A DNA stretch of 64,000 nt. Origin: Actinomycetes bacterium. Lineage in GTDB: Bacteria > Actinomycetota > Thermoleophilia > UBA2241. Positions 56 through 54,862 of the stretch are shown here, in pieces. The notes below the pieces were generated by a model. It did no database searches. It had not been told where the DNA came from and saw nothing but the letters and a program-made list of their open reading frames with translations. The first letter of the stretch is position 1. Each line of letters begins with the position of its first letter. The translations under genes were made by a program, and so were the position numbers. The DNA is taken from assembly GCA_029547745.1 (NCBI GenBank), contig JAKPOQ010000004.1:66737-130736 (forward strand), in the 5' to 3' direction.

Positions 56-3000
56 CTACGGGCGGCCGAGGCTGGCGGCGAGGTCTTCGGGCGCCGGCCG
101 CAGCCGCCGCAGGTGCGTGGCCACGACCGCCGGCACCTCGTCGGGGGCGGCGCACACGACGGGTATCGGCGGCAGGCTCTCGAGGAAGTCACGGCCGTAC
201 GGCTGCTGCGTGAGGCGATGGTCGAGGACGACCACGACGCCGACGTCCGTCTCGGTGCGGATGAGTCGCCCGAAGCCCTGTCTGAACCTGAGGACGGCCT
301 CGGGCAGGTAGAAGCTTCGGAACCAGTCGACGCCCGCCTCGACGCAGGCCTGGCGGCGGGCGTGGAAGAGCGGGCCTTGGGGCGGGAACGGCAGCTTGGC
401 GATGACGAGGCACACGAGCGTCTCGCCCGGAAAGTCCTGGCCGGTCCACAATGAGTCGACACCGAGGAGGATCGTCTCGGGGTGCGCGCGGAACTCCTCG
501 GCGAGCGCGGCTGCGCTCCCGTGGAGACCCTGGGCGAGCACGAGCACCCCATCGTCCTCGACGTGCGCGCCCACAGCGGCGGCGACCCGGTACATGTCAC
601 GCTTGTTGGTGAAGAGCGCCAGAGTGCGGCCTCCGGTGACCTCCGCGATGTGTTTGAGGCGCGCCGTCTGCCGGTCGGCGGCCTCGTCGGGCCGCCAATC
701 ACGTCCGGGGTCGTGTTCGAGGACGAGGACGGCCTGTCGGGTGAAGTCGAACGGCGAGGGGAAGACGCGTTCGTCGACCCCGAGGTCGTCCGCCAGGCCG
801 GTCGTCTCGCGGAAGTAGGTGAACGAGCCCCCGACCGTGAGCGTCGCGCTCGTCAGGACGGCGCCGCGCAAACGGTCCCAGAGGGCGGCGCGGCAGGAGG
901 CGGCGACCGAGAGCGGCGTCCTCGTGAGCGTCCAGCGCGGCCCCGGGGCGAACGCCGCCGGCTCGGGCGTCTCGGCCGGGGCCTCGATCTCGGCCCAGAG
1001 GACCGCGTCGGGGGAGCTCGTCTCGGGCAGCTCGGCGAGAAGGGTGGCCGCCCTGTCCGCATCGTCGACTAGCGCCAGCAGCGGCGACCGCTCACGGTGG
1101 TCGTCGGGAAGCGTCTCGGCTGCCTGCGCCGCCGCGCCGGCCAAGGCGGCGAGACGCTCGCTGAGGAGGCTCGTCGCCGTGGCCAGCGCATCCCAGGACG
1201 GCGCCTCGCGGAGTCCGGGTGTGAGCCAGGCGGCGAGGCCGTAGTCGGCGCTTGCGGGAGGGCCGGCCGGCGCGCGCGCCGCGCGGCCATGCGGCGCGCG
1301 GCGCGCGCGCCGGCCGGCCCCCGTGTCGCTCCCGACCGCCGTCTCGGCGACGGCGGCGAGGGCCTCGCCGACCGCGCGCGCCAAAGACGGGAGGTCGGCG
1401 AGCAGGCGCTCGGCGGCCTCGGCGCCGGCGCGGAGCGCCTGCGCCTGCTGAGGCGTGGCGTGGCGCGCCAAGGAGCGCAGGCGCGTCGCCAGGGGCCGCT
1501 GTCGCCCGTGGCCACGCAGGCTGTGACCGAGGACCTCGAGGGTCCGCCGGTCGATCTGGTCGCTGAACGCGGACGTGGCCTCGGCGGGGAGCAGGTGCGC
1601 CTCGTCGATGATCACATGCTCGTGTTCGGGGAGGATCTCGTGGCCGGTCAGGAGCAGGGCGTGATTGACGAGGACGAGGTGGGCGGCCTCGGCACGGCTG
1701 CGCGCGAGGCGCCAGGGACAGCGGCCGCGGGCCGGACAGTGGCGGCCCAGGCAGGTGGCTCGCGAGGAACGCAGCTCGTGCGCCAGGGCCGTCAGGGCCG
1801 GCAGTTCGCGTTGCGCGCGGAAGGGAAGGGCCGAGAGGTCGACCTCGCCCCAGCGCGTGCGACCGACCAGGTAGGCGAGCGCCAGCGCCCGATCGACGTC
1901 GGGCAGAGCGCCGGCCTCGCCCCGGACGGCGTCGTCGAGCCGGCGTCGGCAGAGGTAGTTCTCGCGGCCCATGAGCACGGCCCAGTTCCAGCCCGGCGGG
2001 AGGGCCGCCTGGACGAGGGGGAGCTCGTGGGCGGCGAGCTGACGCTGGAGGGCTTTGGTCTTGGTACTGACGACCACGCGTGTGCCCGACGCGGCGCCGG
2101 CGAAGGCCGCCGGCAGGAGGTAGGCGAGGCTCTTGCCCATGCCCGTCCCGGCCTCGAAGAGGCCGATGCCGCCTGTTTCGAGGATGCCGGCGACCGCCTC
2201 TGCCATCGTCACCTGTCCGGCGCGCGGGCAGTAGCCGGGGAGCCGCGCCGCCAGTCCGGCGGGAGACTGCGTGGCAGCGGACGTCGGCCGGCGAGCGTCG
2301 CTGCGACGGCGCGCCCGGTCGTCGGCGCCGGCGGCGTCGTCGGCCCCCGTCCGGTCACCGGGGTCGAACTCCGCGCGCCAACCGTCGGCCGCGCACGGGA
2401 GGGCGGTGAGGGCGGCGCCGCGGGCGGCCCGCTGCGGCTCGGCGGCGACCGGCGGCGTCGGGGCCGCCTCGGGCGCCGCCCTCACCGCGTCGAGGATCCT
2501 GAGCGGGCGCCAACGGACGGCCTCGAGCAGGCCGCGCTCCTCGGCGGCGAGGCCGGCCGCTCTCGCCGCCAGGCGGCGCAGCAGCTCGGAGGTGGCCACG
2601 GCGTCGGGGAGGGCGCGGTGCTGCGGCGGCGCGATGCCGAGGGCCTCTGCCAGGATGGACAGCGCATGACGGTCGTGTTCGGGGAAGAGGACGAGCGCGG
2701 CCTCGAGGGTGTCGAACCAGTCGCCGCCCAGCGGGGCGAGACCGGCGCGTCGGGCGGCTGCCTCGAGATGGGCGCGGTCGAAGGCGGCGTTATGGGCGAC
2801 GAGCAGCGCGCCCTCGGCGAAGCGTGAGAGCGCCGCGTAGGCTTCGGCCATCGTCGGGGCTGCGGCGAGGGCGGCCCCGTCGATGCCCGTCATGCGGGTG
2901 ACGGCGAGCGGCACGGGGACATCGGCGCGTACGAGCGTCGAGAGACGATCGGTCTCGCGCAGGCGGGCGTCGAGGCGGACGGCCCCGAGGTCGATGATGC

Positions 3001-3070
3001 GGTCGCGGGCGGGGTCGAGTCCGGTCGTCTCGGTGTCGACGACGACGAAGCTCAGCGGGACGTCGGGCAT
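56..3070 (-). CDS. dinG: DnaQ-type exonuclease / DinG-family helicase fusion
   Basis: A 1004-residue fusion of a DEDDh 3'-5' exonuclease and an XPD/DinG-type superfamily 2 helicase, expected to act on DNA or DNA-RNA structures in repair and replication. Residues 1-175 are the exonuclease: DTETTG supplies the D-x-E pair, AHNAAFD the second Asp and HRALPDA the His/Asp motif. Walker A GTGMGKS lies near 307 and the DEAH box IIDEAHLL near 488; motif VI is RFRQGFGRLIR near 940. Four cysteines (NYLC near 375, then C-x4-C-x5-C near 437-448) match the iron-sulfur domain of XPD/DinG, which some Gram-positive DinG fusions lack. Residues ~210-270 and ~583-603 are low-complexity; the second is encoded by a long palindrome. 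The start is ATG 3070, 6 nt after a possible -10 box, without a Shine-Dalgarno sequence. No SOS box is visible upstream. Confidence 0.93.
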   Translation of the reverse strand: MPDVPLSFVVVDTETTGLDPARDRIIDLGAVRLDARLRETDRLSTLVRADVPVPLAVTRMTGIDGAALAAAPTMAEAYAALSRFAEGALLVAHNAAFDRAHLEAAARRAGLAPLGGDWFDTLEAALVLFPEHDRHALSILAEALGIAPPQHRALPDAVATSELLRRLAARAAGLAAEERGLLEAVRWRPLRILDAVRAAPEAAPTPPVAAEPQRAARGAALTALPCAADGWRAEFDPGDRTGADDAAGADDRARRRSDARRPTSAATQSPAGLAARLPGYCPRAGQVTMAEAVAGILETGGIGLFEAGTGMGKSLAYLLPAAFAGAASGTRVVVSTKTKALQRQLAAHELPLVQAALPPGWNWAVLMGRENYLCRRRLDDAVRGEAGALPDVDRALALAYLVGRTRWGEVDLSALPFRAQRELPALTALAHELRSSRATCLGRHCPARGRCPWRLARSRAEAAHLVLVNHALLLTGHEILPEHEHVIIDEAHLLPAEATSAFSDQIDRRTLEVLGHSLRGHGRQRPLATRLRSLARHATPQQAQALRAGAEAAERLLADLPSLARAVGEALAAVAETAVGSDTGAGRRARRAPHGRAARAPAGPPASADYGLAAWLTPGLREAPSWDALATATSLLSERLAALAGAAAQAAETLPDDHRERSPLLALVDDADRAATLLAELPETSSPDAVLWAEIEAPAETPEPAAFAPGPRWTLTRTPLSVAASCRAALWDRLRGAVLTSATLTVGGSFTYFRETTGLADDLGVDERVFPSPFDFTRQAVLVLEHDPGRDWRPDEAADRQTARLKHIAEVTGGRTLALFTNKRDMYRVAAAVGAHVEDDGVLVLAQGLHGSAAALAEEFRAHPETILLGVDSLWTGQDFPGETLVCLVIAKLPFPPQGPLFHARRQACVEAGVDWFRSFYLPEAVLRFRQGFGRLIRTETDVGVVVVLDHRLTQQPYGRDFLESLPPIPVVCAAPDEVPAVVATHLRRLRPAPEDLAASLGRP
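1260..1320. repeat. 26-bp-arm palindrome inside the dinG coding sequence
   Basis: Arms 1260-1285 and 1295-1320 are perfectly complementary over 26 bp, entirely G/C, around a 9-nt centre. It stays in frame and encodes an Arg/Ala/Gly/Pro-rich segment (about residues 583-603) between helicase motifs. It looks like the intergenic hairpins of this window, but is located within a gene. Confidence 0.8.
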
Positions 3071-3131: not shown

Positions 3132-4226
3132 TCAGGCAGAGTCGGCTTCGCGGCGCGCGAGCAGGCAGTCGAGAGCGCCGGCGGCGATCGTCGCGATGAG
3201 CGTGAGGAGCTCGGACCGGCCTTCGGTGCTCGCGCCCGCCAAGGTCAAGGTGAGGGTCAGCGGTCGATCACGGCAGGGAGCCGAGGCGACGAGCACGTGC
3301 GCCGGCTTGGTCTCGATCGCCCGCGACGCGGACGCGGCGGCGCCGGAGGCGCCGGCGCTCTCGTCGCCCCAGCTTGCCACGCACGAGAGCGCATGCAGGG
3401 CGTCGGCCGCGAGGGTCGCCGTCTCGTGGAGCAGGTCGGCGGGCGACGACCGCGCGTGAAGGGCGCCGTGCGCGGCCGAGACCGCCTCGACTGCGCGGCG
3501 CAGGTCGAGGACGTCCTGGTCGCTGCGCCGCAGTTGGGCGAACACGTGCGCGTTGTGGAGGGCGACGGCGGCCTGGCCGGCGATCGCCGTGGCGAGGCGC
3601 ATCTCCTGGCGCGTGAAGCGGCGTTCACGCGAGTGGTCGAGGACCTCGAGCAATCCGATCGCCTGGCCGCGGTGCACCATGGGCAGGACGAGAAGGCATT
3701 TGTCGCCGTCGCGACGCATGATCGCCACCTCGGCTGGGTCGGCGCGGGGATCGCTGACATTGACGACGACGGTCTCGTGTTCCTCGAGGGCGCGCTTGGC
3801 CATCGGGAACTGGTTGACGTTGTAGATCCACGAGTCGGGTCGCCGGTTGCCAAGGTCGTCGTAGTCGGCGAGGACGGTGACCGTGCGGGACTCGCGGTCG
3901 TAGTCCGAGATCACGCAGAAGTGGCAGTCGAGCAGGCTGGTCATCTGGCGGGCGACCTCACGCAGGAGGTCGGCGAGGTCGAGTTGACTCGTGACGGCGA
4001 TGGCCGTCTTCACCAGCGTCTCGAGCTCCCGTTCGCGGGCGAGGCGGGCGGCGAGATGGTTGCTCCCCCCGATCAGGGTGGCCAGTTCCTCGATGTCTTC
4101 CTGCTTGATGCGCCGGTGCCCGCCCGCCGTGCGTGTACAAGGGAGGAACCCGGACGCGGTCCAGCGACGGATCGTGTGCGTGGAGACGCCGAGGCGGCGC
4201 GCGGCGTGCTGGACGCTGAGGTACAT
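3132..4226 (-). CDS. HTH-GAF transcriptional regulator (copy A)
   Basis: A 364-residue protein with an N-terminal MerR/excisionase-like winged helix (residues ~1-50: SVQHAARRLGVSTHTIRRW, then GGHRR) and a GAF-type sensor domain (~75-235), followed by a weakly conserved C-terminal third. It is probably a ligand- or signal-responsive DNA-binding regulator. It is a clear paralogue of the gene at 4444-5511: HTH, linker and GAF align throughout. The start is set at ATG 4226 instead of ATG 4241 because 4226 aligns with the paralogue start MYLSVQ and lies 6 nt after a -10 box preceded by TTGACT. There is no Shine-Dalgarno sequence, so the mRNA is probably leaderless. dinG follows after 61 bp and may be co-transcribed. 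The ligand is unknown. Confidence 0.85.
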   Translation of the reverse strand: MYLSVQHAARRLGVSTHTIRRWTASGFLPCTRTAGGHRRIKQEDIEELATLIGGSNHLAARLARERELETLVKTAIAVTSQLDLADLLREVARQMTSLLDCHFCVISDYDRESRTVTVLADYDDLGNRRPDSWIYNVNQFPMAKRALEEHETVVVNVSDPRADPAEVAIMRRDGDKCLLVLPMVHRGQAIGLLEVLDHSRERRFTRQEMRLATAIAGQAAVALHNAHVFAQLRRSDQDVLDLRRAVEAVSAAHGALHARSSPADLLHETATLAADALHALSCVASWGDESAGASGAAASASRAIETKPAHVLVASAPCRDRPLTLTLTLAGASTEGRSELLTLIATIAAGALDCLLARREADSA

Positions 4227-4232
4227 GGACGG

Positions 4233-4262
4233 AAGGTACATAGTCGCCGACGATCAAGTCAA
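4233..4262 (-). promoter_or_regulatory. promoter of HTH-GAF regulator A
   Basis: Minus strand: -35 TTGACT (4262-4257), 18-bp spacer, -10 TACCTT (4238-4233), then 6 nt to ATG 4226. The layout matches the promoter of paralogue B (17-bp spacer, same 6-nt gap). Confidence 0.65.
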
Positions 4263-4443: not shown

Positions 4444-5511
4444 TCAGCGTGCCATCAGGGCGCCGCCGGCGGCGGCGATGAGGTCCAGCAGCTCGGTCTG
4501 GCCTTCGCTCGGGGGTTCCACCAGCGTGACCGCCAGGGTCAGATCGCTGGCGCCGGACGGGTCGCGGGCGACGACGAGTGTCGCCTGCGTGCCGCGCTCG
4601 TCCCCGTCGTCGAAGGCTGCCGAAGCCTCGCCGAAGGCGCCGGCGCTGGCGCCGCCCGCGCTGGCCACGCATGAGACCGCTTCGAGCGCGTCGCAGGCGA
4701 CGCGGGCGACTTCGGCGAGCGCGGCGTCCGGCGCCGCCGCGACCACGGCCGGGACCCTGCCGGTGAGGCAGCGCAGGGCGGAACGCAGGCGCGAGATGTC
4801 GTGGTCGCTGCGCGTCTGGTCGGCGAACAGCTTGGCGTTGTGCAACGCCGCTGCAGCTTGGCCGGCGACCGCGCGGCACAGACGCAGCTCCTGTCGCGAG
4901 TACTGCCGCGAGCGCTTCTGGTCGACGACCTCGAGCAGGCCGATGACGTGATCCTGGTGGACGAGCGGCGCCATGAGGAGGCTCTTGTCCCCGTCGCGGC
5001 GCAGGACTGCGGCCTCCGCTTGGTCAACGTGCGGATCGTCGACGTTGACGACGGCCGTGACGCGTTCCTTGAGGACGCGACGGGTCAGAGGGTACTCGCT
5101 GAGCTTGTAGGGCCCGCTGTCGGGCAGCCGCTGACCGGAATGGTCGTAATCGGCCAGGACGTAGACGATGCCCGCGCGCTCGTCGAACTCGGAGATGGCG
5201 CAGAAGTGGCAGTCCAGAAGCGCCGTCATGCGGCGTGCGATCTCTGCCAGCAGCTCGGTGACGTCGAGCCTGCTGGCCAGGGCGATGGAGGTGTCGACGA
5301 GGACGTCGAGCTCGCGCTCGCGAGCGAGCTGGGCGGCCAGGTGGTTCGAGTCGCCGATCGCGCGCGCGAGGTCGTCGATGTCGCGCTCGTCGATCCGGCG
5401 GTGGCCCCCCGCGGTCCGCATGCAAGGGAGGAACCCGGTGGCCGTCCAGCGTCTGACGGTGACCGGTGAGACACCGAGGCGGCGTGCCGCCTGCTGCACG
5501 CTCAGGTACAT
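4444..5511 (-). CDS. HTH-GAF transcriptional regulator (copy B)
   Basis: A 355-residue paralogue of copy A, with the same excisionase/MerR-like HTH (residues ~1-50: SVQQAARRLGVSPVTVRRW, GGHRR) and a GAF domain (~75-235) plus a divergent C-terminal region of about 110 residues. The GAF portions share LDCHFC, ADYD, a conserved RRDGDK stretch and HNA, suggesting a common type of signal. It is transcribed away from the saccharopine-dehydrogenase-like gene at 5709, so control of that gene is a reasonable guess. ATG 5511 lies 6 nt after the -10 of a near-consensus promoter and has no Shine-Dalgarno sequence. A 217-bp gap separates it from copy A. Confidence 0.87.
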   Translation of the reverse strand: MYLSVQQAARRLGVSPVTVRRWTATGFLPCMRTAGGHRRIDERDIDDLARAIGDSNHLAAQLARERELDVLVDTSIALASRLDVTELLAEIARRMTALLDCHFCAISEFDERAGIVYVLADYDHSGQRLPDSGPYKLSEYPLTRRVLKERVTAVVNVDDPHVDQAEAAVLRRDGDKSLLMAPLVHQDHVIGLLEVVDQKRSRQYSRQELRLCRAVAGQAAAALHNAKLFADQTRSDHDISRLRSALRCLTGRVPAVVAAAPDAALAEVARVACDALEAVSCVASAGGASAGAFGEASAAFDDGDERGTQATLVVARDPSGASDLTLAVTLVEPPSEGQTELLDLIAAAGGALMAR

Positions 5512-8342: not shown

Positions 8343-9779
8343 TCACGATCCCGCGGATGCCCCTCTGACGATGTCCTCGAGCGCCTCCGCCTTGTCGGCG
8401 GCGAGCTTGGGACCTCGCGCCTCCGCCTCGGCCAGGATCGCCCGCACCTGGTCGGCGGCGTCGTCGGCTTCAGTGCGCCCTCGGGCGCGCCACGCCTCGA
8501 TGCTCAGCCGTGTGGCGATGGTGGGGAGGAACACCTCGCCGGCGCGCAGCCGGCGGGCCGTCTCCTTGTCGTTCAGGTAGCTTCCCGAAAAGCCGAGCCG
8601 CTCGATGGTCGCGGCCATGACTGTCGCCGGCGACACCTCTGCGCCGTCGACCAGGCGGAGGATCATCGCCGCGATCTCGGCGTCGATCACGATCTGCGGC
8701 AGGCTCATGAGATTGGCTCCGCTCAGGAGGCCGATTCCGCCGGTCACGAGGTCGGCCCCCGCCGAGACGGCGACGAGGCCCTTGAGCGCCTTCTCGTAGC
8801 CGGCCTGGATGCCGCCGTACTTGGCGTCGGTGGCGAGACCGGGACACAGCACGGGGACGCCGAGCTCGTGGGCGACCTCGGCGCAGGCGGCCGCCATGAG
8901 GGCCGATTCGAGCGCCCCGAAGGCGAACGTGCCGGCCCTCATGTCGAGCAGGCTGGCGCCGGCGCCCAGCATGACCGGCGTCCCCGGCGCGGCCGTCTCG
9001 ATCACCGTTGCGGCTCCGAGGAACTCGGCCACGTCCATGGCCACGGCTCCGGCCACCGTGATCGGCGCCGTCCCGCCGGCGATCGGCATCGGGTAGATGA
9101 CGATGGGAGTCCCATGGCGCGCCGCCTCGAGGTTGGCGTCGAGGAAGTCGCGGTCGATCGCGAGCGGCGAGGAGGTGCAGCAGACGACGCTGACACGCGG
9201 TCGGCGCCGGAACTCGTCCAGGTCGCCGCAGACGACCTCCATCATCCGCATCAGGACCTCGACCTGCCGCCGGTCGGTGACCTCGTCCTGGAGGTGCTTG
9301 TCGGACCAGCAGAGCCCGGTCTGGTACGCGCGGAAGGGGCGCTCAGTCTCTGCCGTGTCGGTCGCGGCGACGAGCATCCACATGACGTCGACCACCGACA
9401 TCGCGTCGGCGACGATGGTGGACTCACGCTGGTCGCGAAGGGTGCCGGGGCGGTAGTCGCCGCTGTCCATGTCGAGGACGTGGGTCGGGGCGCCCGAGGG
9501 CACGAAGTGCGTGCGGGCGCCGTCGAGGAGCACGTCCTCGGCAGGAGTCGCGCCGCCGAGCAGGACGTCGCGGGGACACGCGCGCAAGGCTTCGGCCACC
9601 AAGCTGCGTGGCAGGCGGGCTACGCCGGCGTCGCGGTCCACGTCGGCTCCGGCCGCGGCCAGGACGGCCAGGCCGCGGCCGGAGCCGAAGCGCATGCCGG
9701 TGCGTTCGAGCAGGCCGAACGCCTCCTCGACGATCAGGTGCCGTTCGTCTTCGCTCAGCCAGCTCGCGGTGAGCCGCAT
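8343..9779 (-). CDS. MttB-family (trimethylamine methyltransferase-like) protein, non-pyrrolysine
   Basis: A 478-residue protein of the MttB superfamily, corrinoid-dependent methyltransferases that demethylate quaternary or tertiary amines. The open frame has no in-frame TAG, so this is a non-pyrrolysine member; characterised relatives such as MtgB act on glycine betaine. Recognisable family regions include the N-terminal ERTGMRFG segment and the central glycine-rich core (VLCPGLATDAKYGG, then GADLVTGGIGLLSG). The start is ATG 9779 because GGGAGG lies 4 nt upstream; the frame extends further upstream without support. No corrinoid protein, corrinoid reductase or methyltetrahydrofolate methyltransferase gene is present in the window, so its partners are encoded elsewhere. 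The substrate is unknown. Confidence 0.83.
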   Translation of the reverse strand: MRLTASWLSEDERHLIVEEAFGLLERTGMRFGSGRGLAVLAAAGADVDRDAGVARLPRSLVAEALRACPRDVLLGGATPAEDVLLDGARTHFVPSGAPTHVLDMDSGDYRPGTLRDQRESTIVADAMSVVDVMWMLVAATDTAETERPFRAYQTGLCWSDKHLQDEVTDRRQVEVLMRMMEVVCGDLDEFRRRPRVSVVCCTSSPLAIDRDFLDANLEAARHGTPIVIYPMPIAGGTAPITVAGAVAMDVAEFLGAATVIETAAPGTPVMLGAGASLLDMRAGTFAFGALESALMAAACAEVAHELGVPVLCPGLATDAKYGGIQAGYEKALKGLVAVSAGADLVTGGIGLLSGANLMSLPQIVIDAEIAAMILRLVDGAEVSPATVMAATIERLGFSGSYLNDKETARRLRAGEVFLPTIATRLSIEAWRARGRTEADDAADQVRAILAEAEARGPKLAADKAEALEDIVRGASAGS

Positions 9780-9828: not shown

Positions 9829-9871
9829 GCGCCGGCGCTGTCGCGGGCCCGGCCCGCGACAGCGCCGGCGC
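9829..9871. repeat. 21-bp-arm perfect palindrome upstream of the MttB-like gene
   Basis: Positions 9829-9849 and 9851-9871 pair perfectly around a single central base. It lies 50 bp upstream of the methyltransferase start and at the edge of the ABC pseudogene, so it is not an obvious terminator. Confidence 0.65.
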
Positions 9872-19446: not shown

Positions 19447-19899
19447 TCACCCTTCACGGTCCGTTCGGACGTTGCGCCAGAGTGAGAGCCCCGTCTCGTC
19501 GTCGAAGGCGCGCTCGAGCGGCTCGCCGCCGGTCAGTTCGTCGAGGAACACCTCGCCCGCGAACACTGTGCACCCCTCGACGACGTGGCCGCCGAAGCAC
19601 CGGCCGTCTTCGCCCGCGACGGCGGCGTGCGCGTGGACCGCGGTCGCCCCGTCGCGGCGCGACACGTTCCCCAGCAGGGAGACGAGTTCCAGTCGCTGGT
19701 CGAAGTCCCGCTCGCGGTACACGTGCGCGACCTGGTCGTACCACGCCAGTCGGGCGCGCTGCAGGGCGCCGACGGCGCGGACCTCGCCGACGAGCACGCG
19801 GTGCTCGTCGGCGAGGTCCGCGATCGCCGCGAGCAGATCGGCGCCGAAGGGCAGGCGGGCGACGAAACGCCGGCCGCCGCTGGACTCGCGAGAAGGCAT
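19447..19899 (-). CDS. PPC/DUF296 domain protein
   Basis: A 150-residue single-domain protein of the PPC (DUF296) family, small trimeric proteins whose fold is shared with plant AT-hook proteins and some bacterial DNA-binding-like proteins. Typical features are the early RLPFGADLLAAI segment, GEVRAVGALQRARLAWYD, the HAHAAVAGEDG strand and the GGHVVEGCTVFAGEV segment, where a conserved histidine-rich pocket may bind metal. The start ATG 19899 has AGGAGG seven bases upstream; the frame is open further upstream but unsupported. It converges on tRNA-Leu. The bacterial function is unknown. Confidence 0.82.
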   Translation of the reverse strand: MPSRESSGGRRFVARLPFGADLLAAIADLADEHRVLVGEVRAVGALQRARLAWYDQVAHVYRERDFDQRLELVSLLGNVSRRDGATAVHAHAAVAGEDGRCFGGHVVEGCTVFAGEVFLDELTGGEPLERAFDDETGLSLWRNVRTDREG

Positions 19900-34299: not shown

Positions 34300-34365
34300 G
34301 GCGGCGCGACCGGGGCGCCTTGGCGCCCCGGTCGCGCCGCCTTGACGCCCCGGTCGCGCCGCCTT
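34300..34365 (+). terminator. 20-bp perfect hairpin with duplicated 3' arm
   Basis: Arms 34300-34319 and 34322-34341 pair perfectly over 20 bp with a two-base centre, 6 bp after the small-protein stop. A 20-bp sequence (34324-34343) containing most of the 3' arm is repeated at 34346-34365, so two alternative hairpins can form. Confidence 0.75.
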
Positions 34366-38939: not shown

Positions 38940-39866
38940 GTGGCCTTCAGCCGGGACGTGAAGCGCGAACTGGCGGCGATCGTGCCGTCGGAGGGGCACT
39001 GTCGGCGCGCCCAGCTCTCGGGCCTGCTGTTCGGCGCCGGCACCTTCTCGATGGGCGCTGGCGGCCGCATCGCGGTGCGCGTCACGGTCTCTCTGCCGGC
39101 CGTCGCTCGCAACGCTCTCGCCTTGCTCAGGCCGTACGAGGCCGAGGCTGAGTTGCGCACGGTGAGCTCGTCGCCCGGCGGCCGCCGCTACGAGGTCGTG
39201 CTCGGCGGCGAGCCGGACCTCCAGCTCCTGAACGAGGCCGGCGTGCTTTCCGACGCGATGCAGCTTCACCTGGCGGCGCCGGGGCGGATCGTCGAGCGCC
39301 GCTGCTGCGTCGTCGCCTTTGTGCGCGGCCTCTTCCAGGGCTGCGGCACGCTGTCGTCGCCGGGGGCCCCCGTCCATGTCGAGTTCACCCTGGCCGGCGA
39401 GGAGCTGGCGGCGCAGACGCAGACCCTGCTCGCCCGTGTCGGTCTCGACTTCAGGCTGGCGCGCAGGGGACGGAACGTCGCCTGCTACAGCAAGCGCTCG
39501 GACACCGCCGCCGACCTTCTCGCCGTGCTCGGCGCGCATGATGCCCGCTTGCGCTGGGAGGAGCAGGCGGTGGTGGGTGAGATGCGCGGCCGTGCGAACC
39601 GGCTGGCGAACTGCGACGAGGCCAACGCGCGCCGCGCGGCGGCGGCCGGCGAACGCCAGGCCGCCGCCGCGCGGCGCCTGAGGGCCTCGTCCGTCTGGGA
39701 GACCATGCCGGCCGCGCTGCGGCAGGCGGCGGACCTGCGCCTCGAGCACCCCTACCTGAGTCTCGGCGAGCTCGCCGCCGCCGCCGACCCGCCGTTGAGC
39801 AGGTCGGCCCTGAACCGTCGCCTTCGCCGCGTCGTGGAGCTCGGCGAGGCCGTCGCCCCGCCCTGA
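38940..39866 (+). CDS. whiA: DNA-binding protein WhiA
   Basis: A 308-residue WhiA, in Streptomyces a sporulation regulator working with WhiB and in other Gram-positives linked to division and chromosome segregation. The N-terminal LAGLIDADG-like fold is in two halves (LSGLLFGAGTFSMG and FVRGLFQGCGTLSS), without the catalytic acids of homing endonucleases. The C-terminal helix-turn-helix covers about residues 260-305 (LSLGELAAAADPPLSRSALN). GTG 38940 begins the conserved FSRDVKRELA and lies 7 bp after yvcK. A bidirectional hairpin follows at 39956. Confidence 0.94.
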   Translation: MAFSRDVKRELAAIVPSEGHCRRAQLSGLLFGAGTFSMGAGGRIAVRVTVSLPAVARNALALLRPYEAEAELRTVSSSPGGRRYEVVLGGEPDLQLLNEAGVLSDAMQLHLAAPGRIVERRCCVVAFVRGLFQGCGTLSSPGAPVHVEFTLAGEELAAQTQTLLARVGLDFRLARRGRNVACYSKRSDTAADLLAVLGAHDARLRWEEQAVVGEMRGRANRLANCDEANARRAAAAGERQAAAARRLRASSVWETMPAALRQAADLRLEHPYLSLGELAAAADPPLSRSALNRRLRRVVELGEAVAPP

Positions 39867-53866: not shown

Positions 53867-54862
53867 GTGGCGAGCGACGAGCATGATCGCGGGCGCGAGC
53901 CGGTGACGGGCCTGACGGAGGTGGAAGGGGCGGCGGCCGGCGCCGCCGTCGCGGCGGCGCCGGCCGCCGCCCCCAAGGTCCTCAGCCCGTGGTCCGACAC
54001 CTGGCGGCGGCTCAAGAAGAACAAGCTCGCCCTCATCGGGTTGGGCATCATCGCCGTGTTCATCGTCGTGGGGATCGTCCAGGTGATCGCCTACCCGCTC
54101 ACGGACGGACGCGGGCTGACGCCCTACGACCCCAACGCCGAGAACTACAGCCTGTCGCCGACCGGCCACGGTTCGTCGCCGAGCCTGTCGCATCCCATGG
54201 GCACCGACTACCTCGGCCGCGACATCCTGTCGCGGGCCCTCGTCGCGACCCGCATCTCGCTGCTCGTCGGCGTCATCGCCGTGGCCATCGGCCTCATCAT
54301 CGGCCTCATCCTGGGCCCGATCTCGGGCTACTACGGCGGGTTCGTCGACACCGTCATCATGCGGCTCGCCGACATCTTCTTCGCCTACCCGTACATCCTC
54401 TTCGTGCTGCTGATCATGACCGTCCTCGGGCCCGGTTTCGTGAACGTGTTCCTGGCGATCGGCATCTTGGGGTGGGCATCCTTCGCACGCATCGTGCGCG
54501 GCCAGGTGTTGAGCGTGAAGAGCATGGAGTACGTCGAGGCGGCCCGTGCCCAGGGCGCGAGCGACCTGCGCATCATCTTCCGCCATGTGCTGCCGAACAG
54601 CATGGCGCCCGTCTACGTGACGATCGCCATGTCCGTCGGCGGGGCGATCGTCACCGAGGCGGCCATGAGCTTTCTCGGCATCGGCGTGCAACCCCCGAAC
54701 GCGAGCTGGGGCAAGATGATCTCCGACTACCTCAACTACCTCTTCGCGGGGAGCTGGTGGATGGTGCTGTTCCCCAGCGTGCTCCTCACCGTCACCGTCT
54801 TCGGCTTCATCTCGTTCGGCAATGGCCTGCGCGACGCCACCGACCCGAGGCTCAAGGAGTAG
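53867..54862 (+). CDS. dppC: peptide ABC transporter permease (DppC/OppC type)
   Basis: A 331-residue partner permease. An Ala-rich cytoplasmic N terminus (residues ~20-37) precedes the first helix; HPMGTDYLGRDILSR is the typical DppC segment after it. The coupling loop reads EAARAQGASDLRIIFRHVLPN, with later WGKMISDYLNYLF near the end. The start is GTG 53867, one base after the dppB stop, so the two subunits are made in step. dppD follows after 2 bp. Confidence 0.93.
   Translation: MASDEHDRGREPVTGLTEVEGAAAGAAVAAAPAAAPKVLSPWSDTWRRLKKNKLALIGLGIIAVFIVVGIVQVIAYPLTDGRGLTPYDPNAENYSLSPTGHGSSPSLSHPMGTDYLGRDILSRALVATRISLLVGVIAVAIGLIIGLILGPISGYYGGFVDTVIMRLADIFFAYPYILFVLLIMTVLGPGFVNVFLAIGILGWASFARIVRGQVLSVKSMEYVEAARAQGASDLRIIFRHVLPNSMAPVYVTIAMSVGGAIVTEAAMSFLGIGVQPPNASWGKMISDYLNYLFAGSWWMVLFPSVLLTVTVFGFISFGNGLRDATDPRLKE

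Follow-up and report, generated by a model that had tools for sequence, protein, structure and literature searches.

How does a gene for a DinG-like helicase come to carry, in the middle of its reading frame, a long and perfect palindrome built entirely of G and C? Long perfect palindromes are rare in genes because the encoded protein is constrained and the DNA is destabilised. The palindrome lies in the stretch of 64,000 nucleotides that we analysed (the window), which is part of a 2.27-Mb metagenome-assembled genome of 203 contigs (G000), and we compared it with relatives labelled Thermoleophilia. An earlier note on this DNA had described a perfect 26-bp, all-G/C stem inside dinG, and a repeat search of the window bore the description out: the arms at 1260-1285 and 1295-1320 were 100% complementary, and the frame around them was intact over 1004 codons. 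The features at the locus are as follows.

56-3070, minus strand: dinG-like gene with a DnaQ-type 3'-5' exonuclease domain and a DinG/XPD-type helicase, 1004 amino acids, intact (open frame, domains)
1295-1320, minus strand: first palindrome arm in the sense of the dinG mRNA, GGGCCGGCCGGCGCGCGCGCCGCGCG (repeat search and sequence)
1286-1294, minus strand: loop of the dinG palindrome, 9 nt (repeat search)
1260-1285, minus strand: second palindrome arm in the sense of the dinG mRNA (repeat search, alignment)

The product of the open frame contained the domains RNase_T, DEAD and Helicase_C_2, and its closest solved structures were 8zef (3'-5' exonuclease DinG) and 6fwr (DinG helicase). The palindrome encodes residues 584-604 of the 1004, within GAGRRARRAPHGRAARAPAGPP, and thus lies mid-gene and wholly inside the frame.

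The note had also held that ordinary codon use does not produce such a stem, and our recoding experiments led to the same view. Among 1500 synonymous-codon shuffles of dinG the longest stem was 14 bp, and 26 bp was reached in none (0/1500); when the peptide was held fixed and dinG's own codon use was drawn at random, the maximum among 20,000 trials was 19 bp. The peptide does favour self-complementary codons, and a few of the 20,000 recodings reached 16-19 bp, as might be expected of chance stems in low-complexity Arg/Ala/Pro/Gly coding within very GC-rich DNA, but no recoding arrived at the observed length.

At the RNA level the palindrome and its surroundings are predicted to fold into a very stable hairpin (-90.5 kcal/mol over 101 nt, z = -7.1 relative to dinucleotide shuffles). 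The stem had been called terminator-like, a description that suits the stem and nothing else about it: like intrinsic terminators it has a GC-rich stem and a short loop, but it differs from them in being flanked by no T-tract on either side, so that no run of T follows the stem, and in lying mid-gene rather than at the gene's 3' end. On these grounds we rejected the terminator reading of the dinG stem.

Aligning dinG with its relatives placed the palindrome segment in a hypervariable linker. A single same-genus relative had dinG (G001, locus L034, UBA2241, 71% identical); its linker was of the same length but of another, non-palindromic sequence, and relatives of another genus had a linker ~10 residues shorter. 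Because length was equal and sequence different in G001, the segment, which the note had called an insert, is better described as a reworked linker than as a clean insertion. The outer part of the second arm (A P A G P P) still aligned with A P D G P P in the same-genus relative; overall, 14 and 10 of the 26 positions differed in the two arms. With both arms this far from G001, a single copying event is not legible there. The structural setting of the linker is given below.

1322-1453, minus strand: long helix preceding the linker, residues 540-583 (structure prediction)
1238-1327, minus strand: codes for the hypervariable linker (residues 582-611), pLDDT ~28-36 (alignment, structure prediction)
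1112-1219, minus strand: helices after the linker, residues 618-653 (structure prediction)

The prediction is thus of a helical hairpin whose tip, residues 582-611, is a disordered loop, in a model of modest quality (mean pLDDT 65, built with 14 sequences from the window and the compared loci). The suggestion that the palindrome occupies a loop tolerant of change therefore agrees with both the alignment and the predicted disorder.

The dinG palindrome is not alone. In samples that amounted to ~0.53 Mb for G000 and ~1.11 Mb for G001, we called genes by a simple rule, masked the 120 nt that follow a called start and the 30 nt that precede a stop, and counted perfect coding stems from 16 bp upwards. 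The 375 kb of G000 coding DNA contained 29 such stems compared with ~0.2 in synonymous-codon shuffles, the 826 kb of G001 contained 14 compared with 0.2, and other members of the family (110 kb coding) contained 4 compared with 0.2 expected. By contrast, none was found in 174 kb from four genomes of the same class but other families, whose GC content was equal or higher. Long perfect stems were spread over many unrelated coding genes, in numbers above codon-level chance. The palindrome-forming process that the note had supposed to act within genes is thus visible as a lineage-wide excess, and at that level the idea that the stems are chance by-products of GC-rich coding is refuted; we regard it as next to impossible for dinG. 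Three further examples in the window are listed here.

9643-9688, minus strand: coding palindrome in an MTTB-family gene, 18-bp perfect stem (repeat search)
19776-19822, minus strand: coding palindrome in a PCC-domain gene, 22-bp perfect stem (repeat search)
39629-39677, plus strand: coding palindrome in whiA, inside the HTH domain (HTH_WhiA), 19-bp perfect stem (repeat search, orthologue comparison)

Elsewhere in G000, a called gene 497 codons long, for which no homologue was found among the compared loci, contained a perfect stem of 34 bp around a loop of 3 nt (L160:4324-4394, contig C167), and a 25-bp perfect hairpin (L136:1451-1503, contig C20) lay in a 32-residue segment missing from the G001 orthologue. 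Where codons pair within the stems, position 2 opposite position 2 (phase 2) was the dominant arrangement (24/42). Perfect hairpins of 19-22 bp also occurred within the first ~35 codons of three genes in the window, at 9829-9871 (MTTB), 34300-34341 (uvrC) and 53927-53973 (OppC-type permease); these may be intergenic if the true starts lie downstream.

Were the stems remnants of old hairpins, simple decay would predict more near-perfect than perfect ones. A strict count of imperfect stems gave almost none, and we used a less strict, fairer count instead. In 16-bp spans of G000, perfect stems numbered 29 compared with 0.7 expected, those with one mismatch 17 compared with 2.7 and those with two mismatches 45 compared with 23, which corresponds to enrichments of ~40-fold, ~6-fold and ~2-fold, respectively. 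The far greater enrichment of perfect stems is the opposite of what decay predicts. At G001 sites orthologous to stems of 14-20 bp, quasi-palindromes were often found. The dinG linker itself offers another comparison: in a relative of another genus (L036) it contained an independent 17-bp perfect stem with a 13-nt loop, and two sisters of L036 (L035 and L042) had the same two arms with mismatches. Judged by their sequences, the arms of the sisters appear to be a quasi-palindrome and those of L036 its perfected product. Linkers bearing indels housed all three of the longest stems for which a spanning orthologue existed (25, 26 and 29 bp), and among stems of 14-20 bp with orthologues a gap was present in one only. 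In an L160 case the arms showed 0 and 2 differences, that is, both in one arm; for several other hairpins the differences from the orthologue were divided over both arms.

A process that turns imperfect into perfect repeats is already described: in quasipalindrome mutation a template switch of the nascent strand makes an imperfect repeat perfect (PMC7202029, PMC6357072), and the same kind of mutation also occurs within yeast coding genes (PMC8604942). We consider it probable that DNA replication gave rise to the dinG palindrome as a by-product in this way, and that the palindrome was kept in a tolerant loop. Where a short inverted repeat is imperfect, the nascent strand would fold back and be copied from its own other arm; one arm would thereby become the exact reverse complement of its partner, leaving the repeat perfect and longer. 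Selection would purge most such events within genes; the DinG linker would take an open-frame Arg/Ala/Pro/Gly peptide, and the palindrome would be kept because it sits in the disordered tip between two DinG helices. The process, or the tolerance of it, would have to be unusually strong in this Thermoleophilia family for dozens of genes to contain perfect palindromes. That a template switch took place, and in which direction it ran in dinG, is what we infer from these comparisons.

Another explanation is that the dinG stem was selected as an RNA structure, as an intragenic terminator, an attenuator or an mRNA-stability element. The stability of the hairpin is what this would predict, as is the whiA stem, which was perfect also in the same-genus relative (L069:12865-12913) with one compensated G-C/C-G pair; this conservation in both species could be explained by template switching or by selection. 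Terminator function fits poorly, since the dinG stem has no T-tract and at least 5 T within 10 nt accompanied none of the in-gene hairpins (0/28 in G000, 0/14 in G001). Nor did same-genus dinG have a stem at the corresponding place, and the hairpins were scattered across unrelated genes. Selection on RNA pairing should also favour G-U over A-C mismatches, and no preference for G-T over A-C was seen in the sense strand (31 compared with 36, 16-bp spans of both genomes, a weak test in that most two-mismatch stems arise by chance). The missing bias points to a process at the DNA level rather than to selection for mRNA structure, which we think unlikely as the origin of the dinG stem.

Palindromes that enter genes in frame are known from Rickettsia, whose palindromic elements are summarised in PMC6649704, citing Ogata et al. 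2000, as copies of one mobile family that lose stem identity over time. The palindromes described here likewise lie in frame and in tolerant segments of proteins, and the 25-bp palindrome of L136, in its 32-residue segment that the orthologue lacks, looks much as an inserted mobile element would. The Rickettsia elements are, however, copies of a single family, whereas the present hairpins are perfect and unrelated in sequence: no common sequence family emerged among them beyond GC-rich composition, apart from two G000/G001 pairs that look orthologous, and the only other match within the own genome was 84% over ~41 bases. dinG showed neither homologous copies nor a clean insertion, with no net gain in length relative to the same-genus relative. 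For want of sequence-related copies we rejected the in-frame insertion of a mobile palindromic element as the source, and we hold it to be very improbable.

An artefact of assembly or library preparation, such as a fold-back chimera in a metagenome-assembled genome, would also yield perfect arms. G000 is fragmented, and dinG was split across contigs in six relatives, with four of the six breaks falling within residues 535-605 (random-break chance ~3e-4, the four being from one genus). Contig ends in or near the dinG linker were seen in G009 (L041/L043), G010 (L044), G011 (L014/L042) and G012 (L015), and the clustering fits a linker that is hard to assemble. One G001 hairpin, in a called gene at L080:178-227 (contig C14), has ~23-bp perfect arms around a two-base NN assembly gap and is possibly a scaffolding artefact. 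Against a chimeric origin of the dinG palindrome stand a frame that is open over 1004 codons and a linker length that matches the same-genus relative; moreover, similar hairpins occurred in assemblies from several projects and in none of the same-class controls, and the whiA hairpin was found in two independent assemblies. We therefore judge an artefact to be quite unlikely.

Template switching of the nascent strand, our preferred origin for the dinG palindrome, raises the question of why it should be so frequent in this family. Two exonucleases of E. coli, ExoI and ExoVII, keep quasipalindrome template switching in check. The part played by ExoI is the subject of a study that appears as a citation within PMC6357072. 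Neither XseA nor XseB was detected, at the cut-offs of the protein families, in any of the 15 family genomes (G000 and 14 relatives), XseA was present in all four control genomes, and it was not found in two further families. Searching with a generic hairpin covariance model matched 9 of 160 class genomes (E up to 0.02), and 16 of 40 in a separate search; because scoring was limited in each genome to the 40-150 best among thousands of candidates, these counts are not quantitative. The matches were confined to three families without detected XseA (Fisher ~2e-4, ignoring kinship). Loss of ExoVII, which trims fold-back 3' ends, might have left template switching unchecked, producing perfect palindromes genome-wide and reshaping protein loops, a proposal that we put forward as tentative and rather doubtful. 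As a sufficient cause, simple loss of ExoVII was rejected: one family in which XseA was not found (f4) had no stem longer than 12 bp in 24 kb and hence no excess, the tested genomes of another (f6) keep XseB, and the families are not independent, three of them amounting to few events. Loss of SbcD was likewise rejected, as it followed no pattern and several family genomes have SbcD.

The closest described parallel is provided by the coding palindromes of Nematomorpha mitochondria, perfect repeats that occur in many genes, are gained and lost between species and have been attributed, as a proposal, to template switching (PMC6649704). Common to both are perfect inverted repeats in unrelated protein genes. 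In Nematomorpha these come without a matching surplus of imperfect ones; in the bacterial lineage near-perfect stems are somewhat enriched, though far less than perfect ones. The mitochondrial stems reach 284 bp and pair mainly in phase 1, whereas those described here are bacterial and GC-rich, reach 34 bp and pair mainly in phase 2. Quasipalindrome mutation as studied in E. coli (PMC7202029, PMC6357072) and yeast (PMC8604942) shares the conversion of imperfect into perfect repeats, coding DNA included, but is known from single hotspots and short repeats; in the present lineage stems of 16-34 bp are frequent, and the event is one that we infer. No report of a comparable lineage was found in the literature searched, coverage of which was incomplete. 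Dozens of coding palindromes in a free-living bacterial lineage would amount to a natural experiment on palindrome formation and persistence; they would reveal template switching as a way in which proteins gain new loop sequences and would offer a testable link to the missing nuclease ExoVII.

Finally, the note had ascribed intergenic and genic palindromes to one process. A process does act in genes, but intergenic stems of at least 16 bp lay mainly in co-directional or convergent rather than divergent gaps (22 compared with 2 in G000 and 26 compared with 2 in G001, as raw counts, not per number of gaps). This placement suggests that ordinary terminators probably make up many of them, which need not then have arisen by the process that makes genic palindromes, and a link between the intergenic palindromes and that in dinG is possible. 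Two adjacent and similar genes, each for a regulator that combines a MerR-type HTH with GAF, also occur in the window (3132-4241 and 4444-5511, minus strand), and they are probably a tandem duplication.
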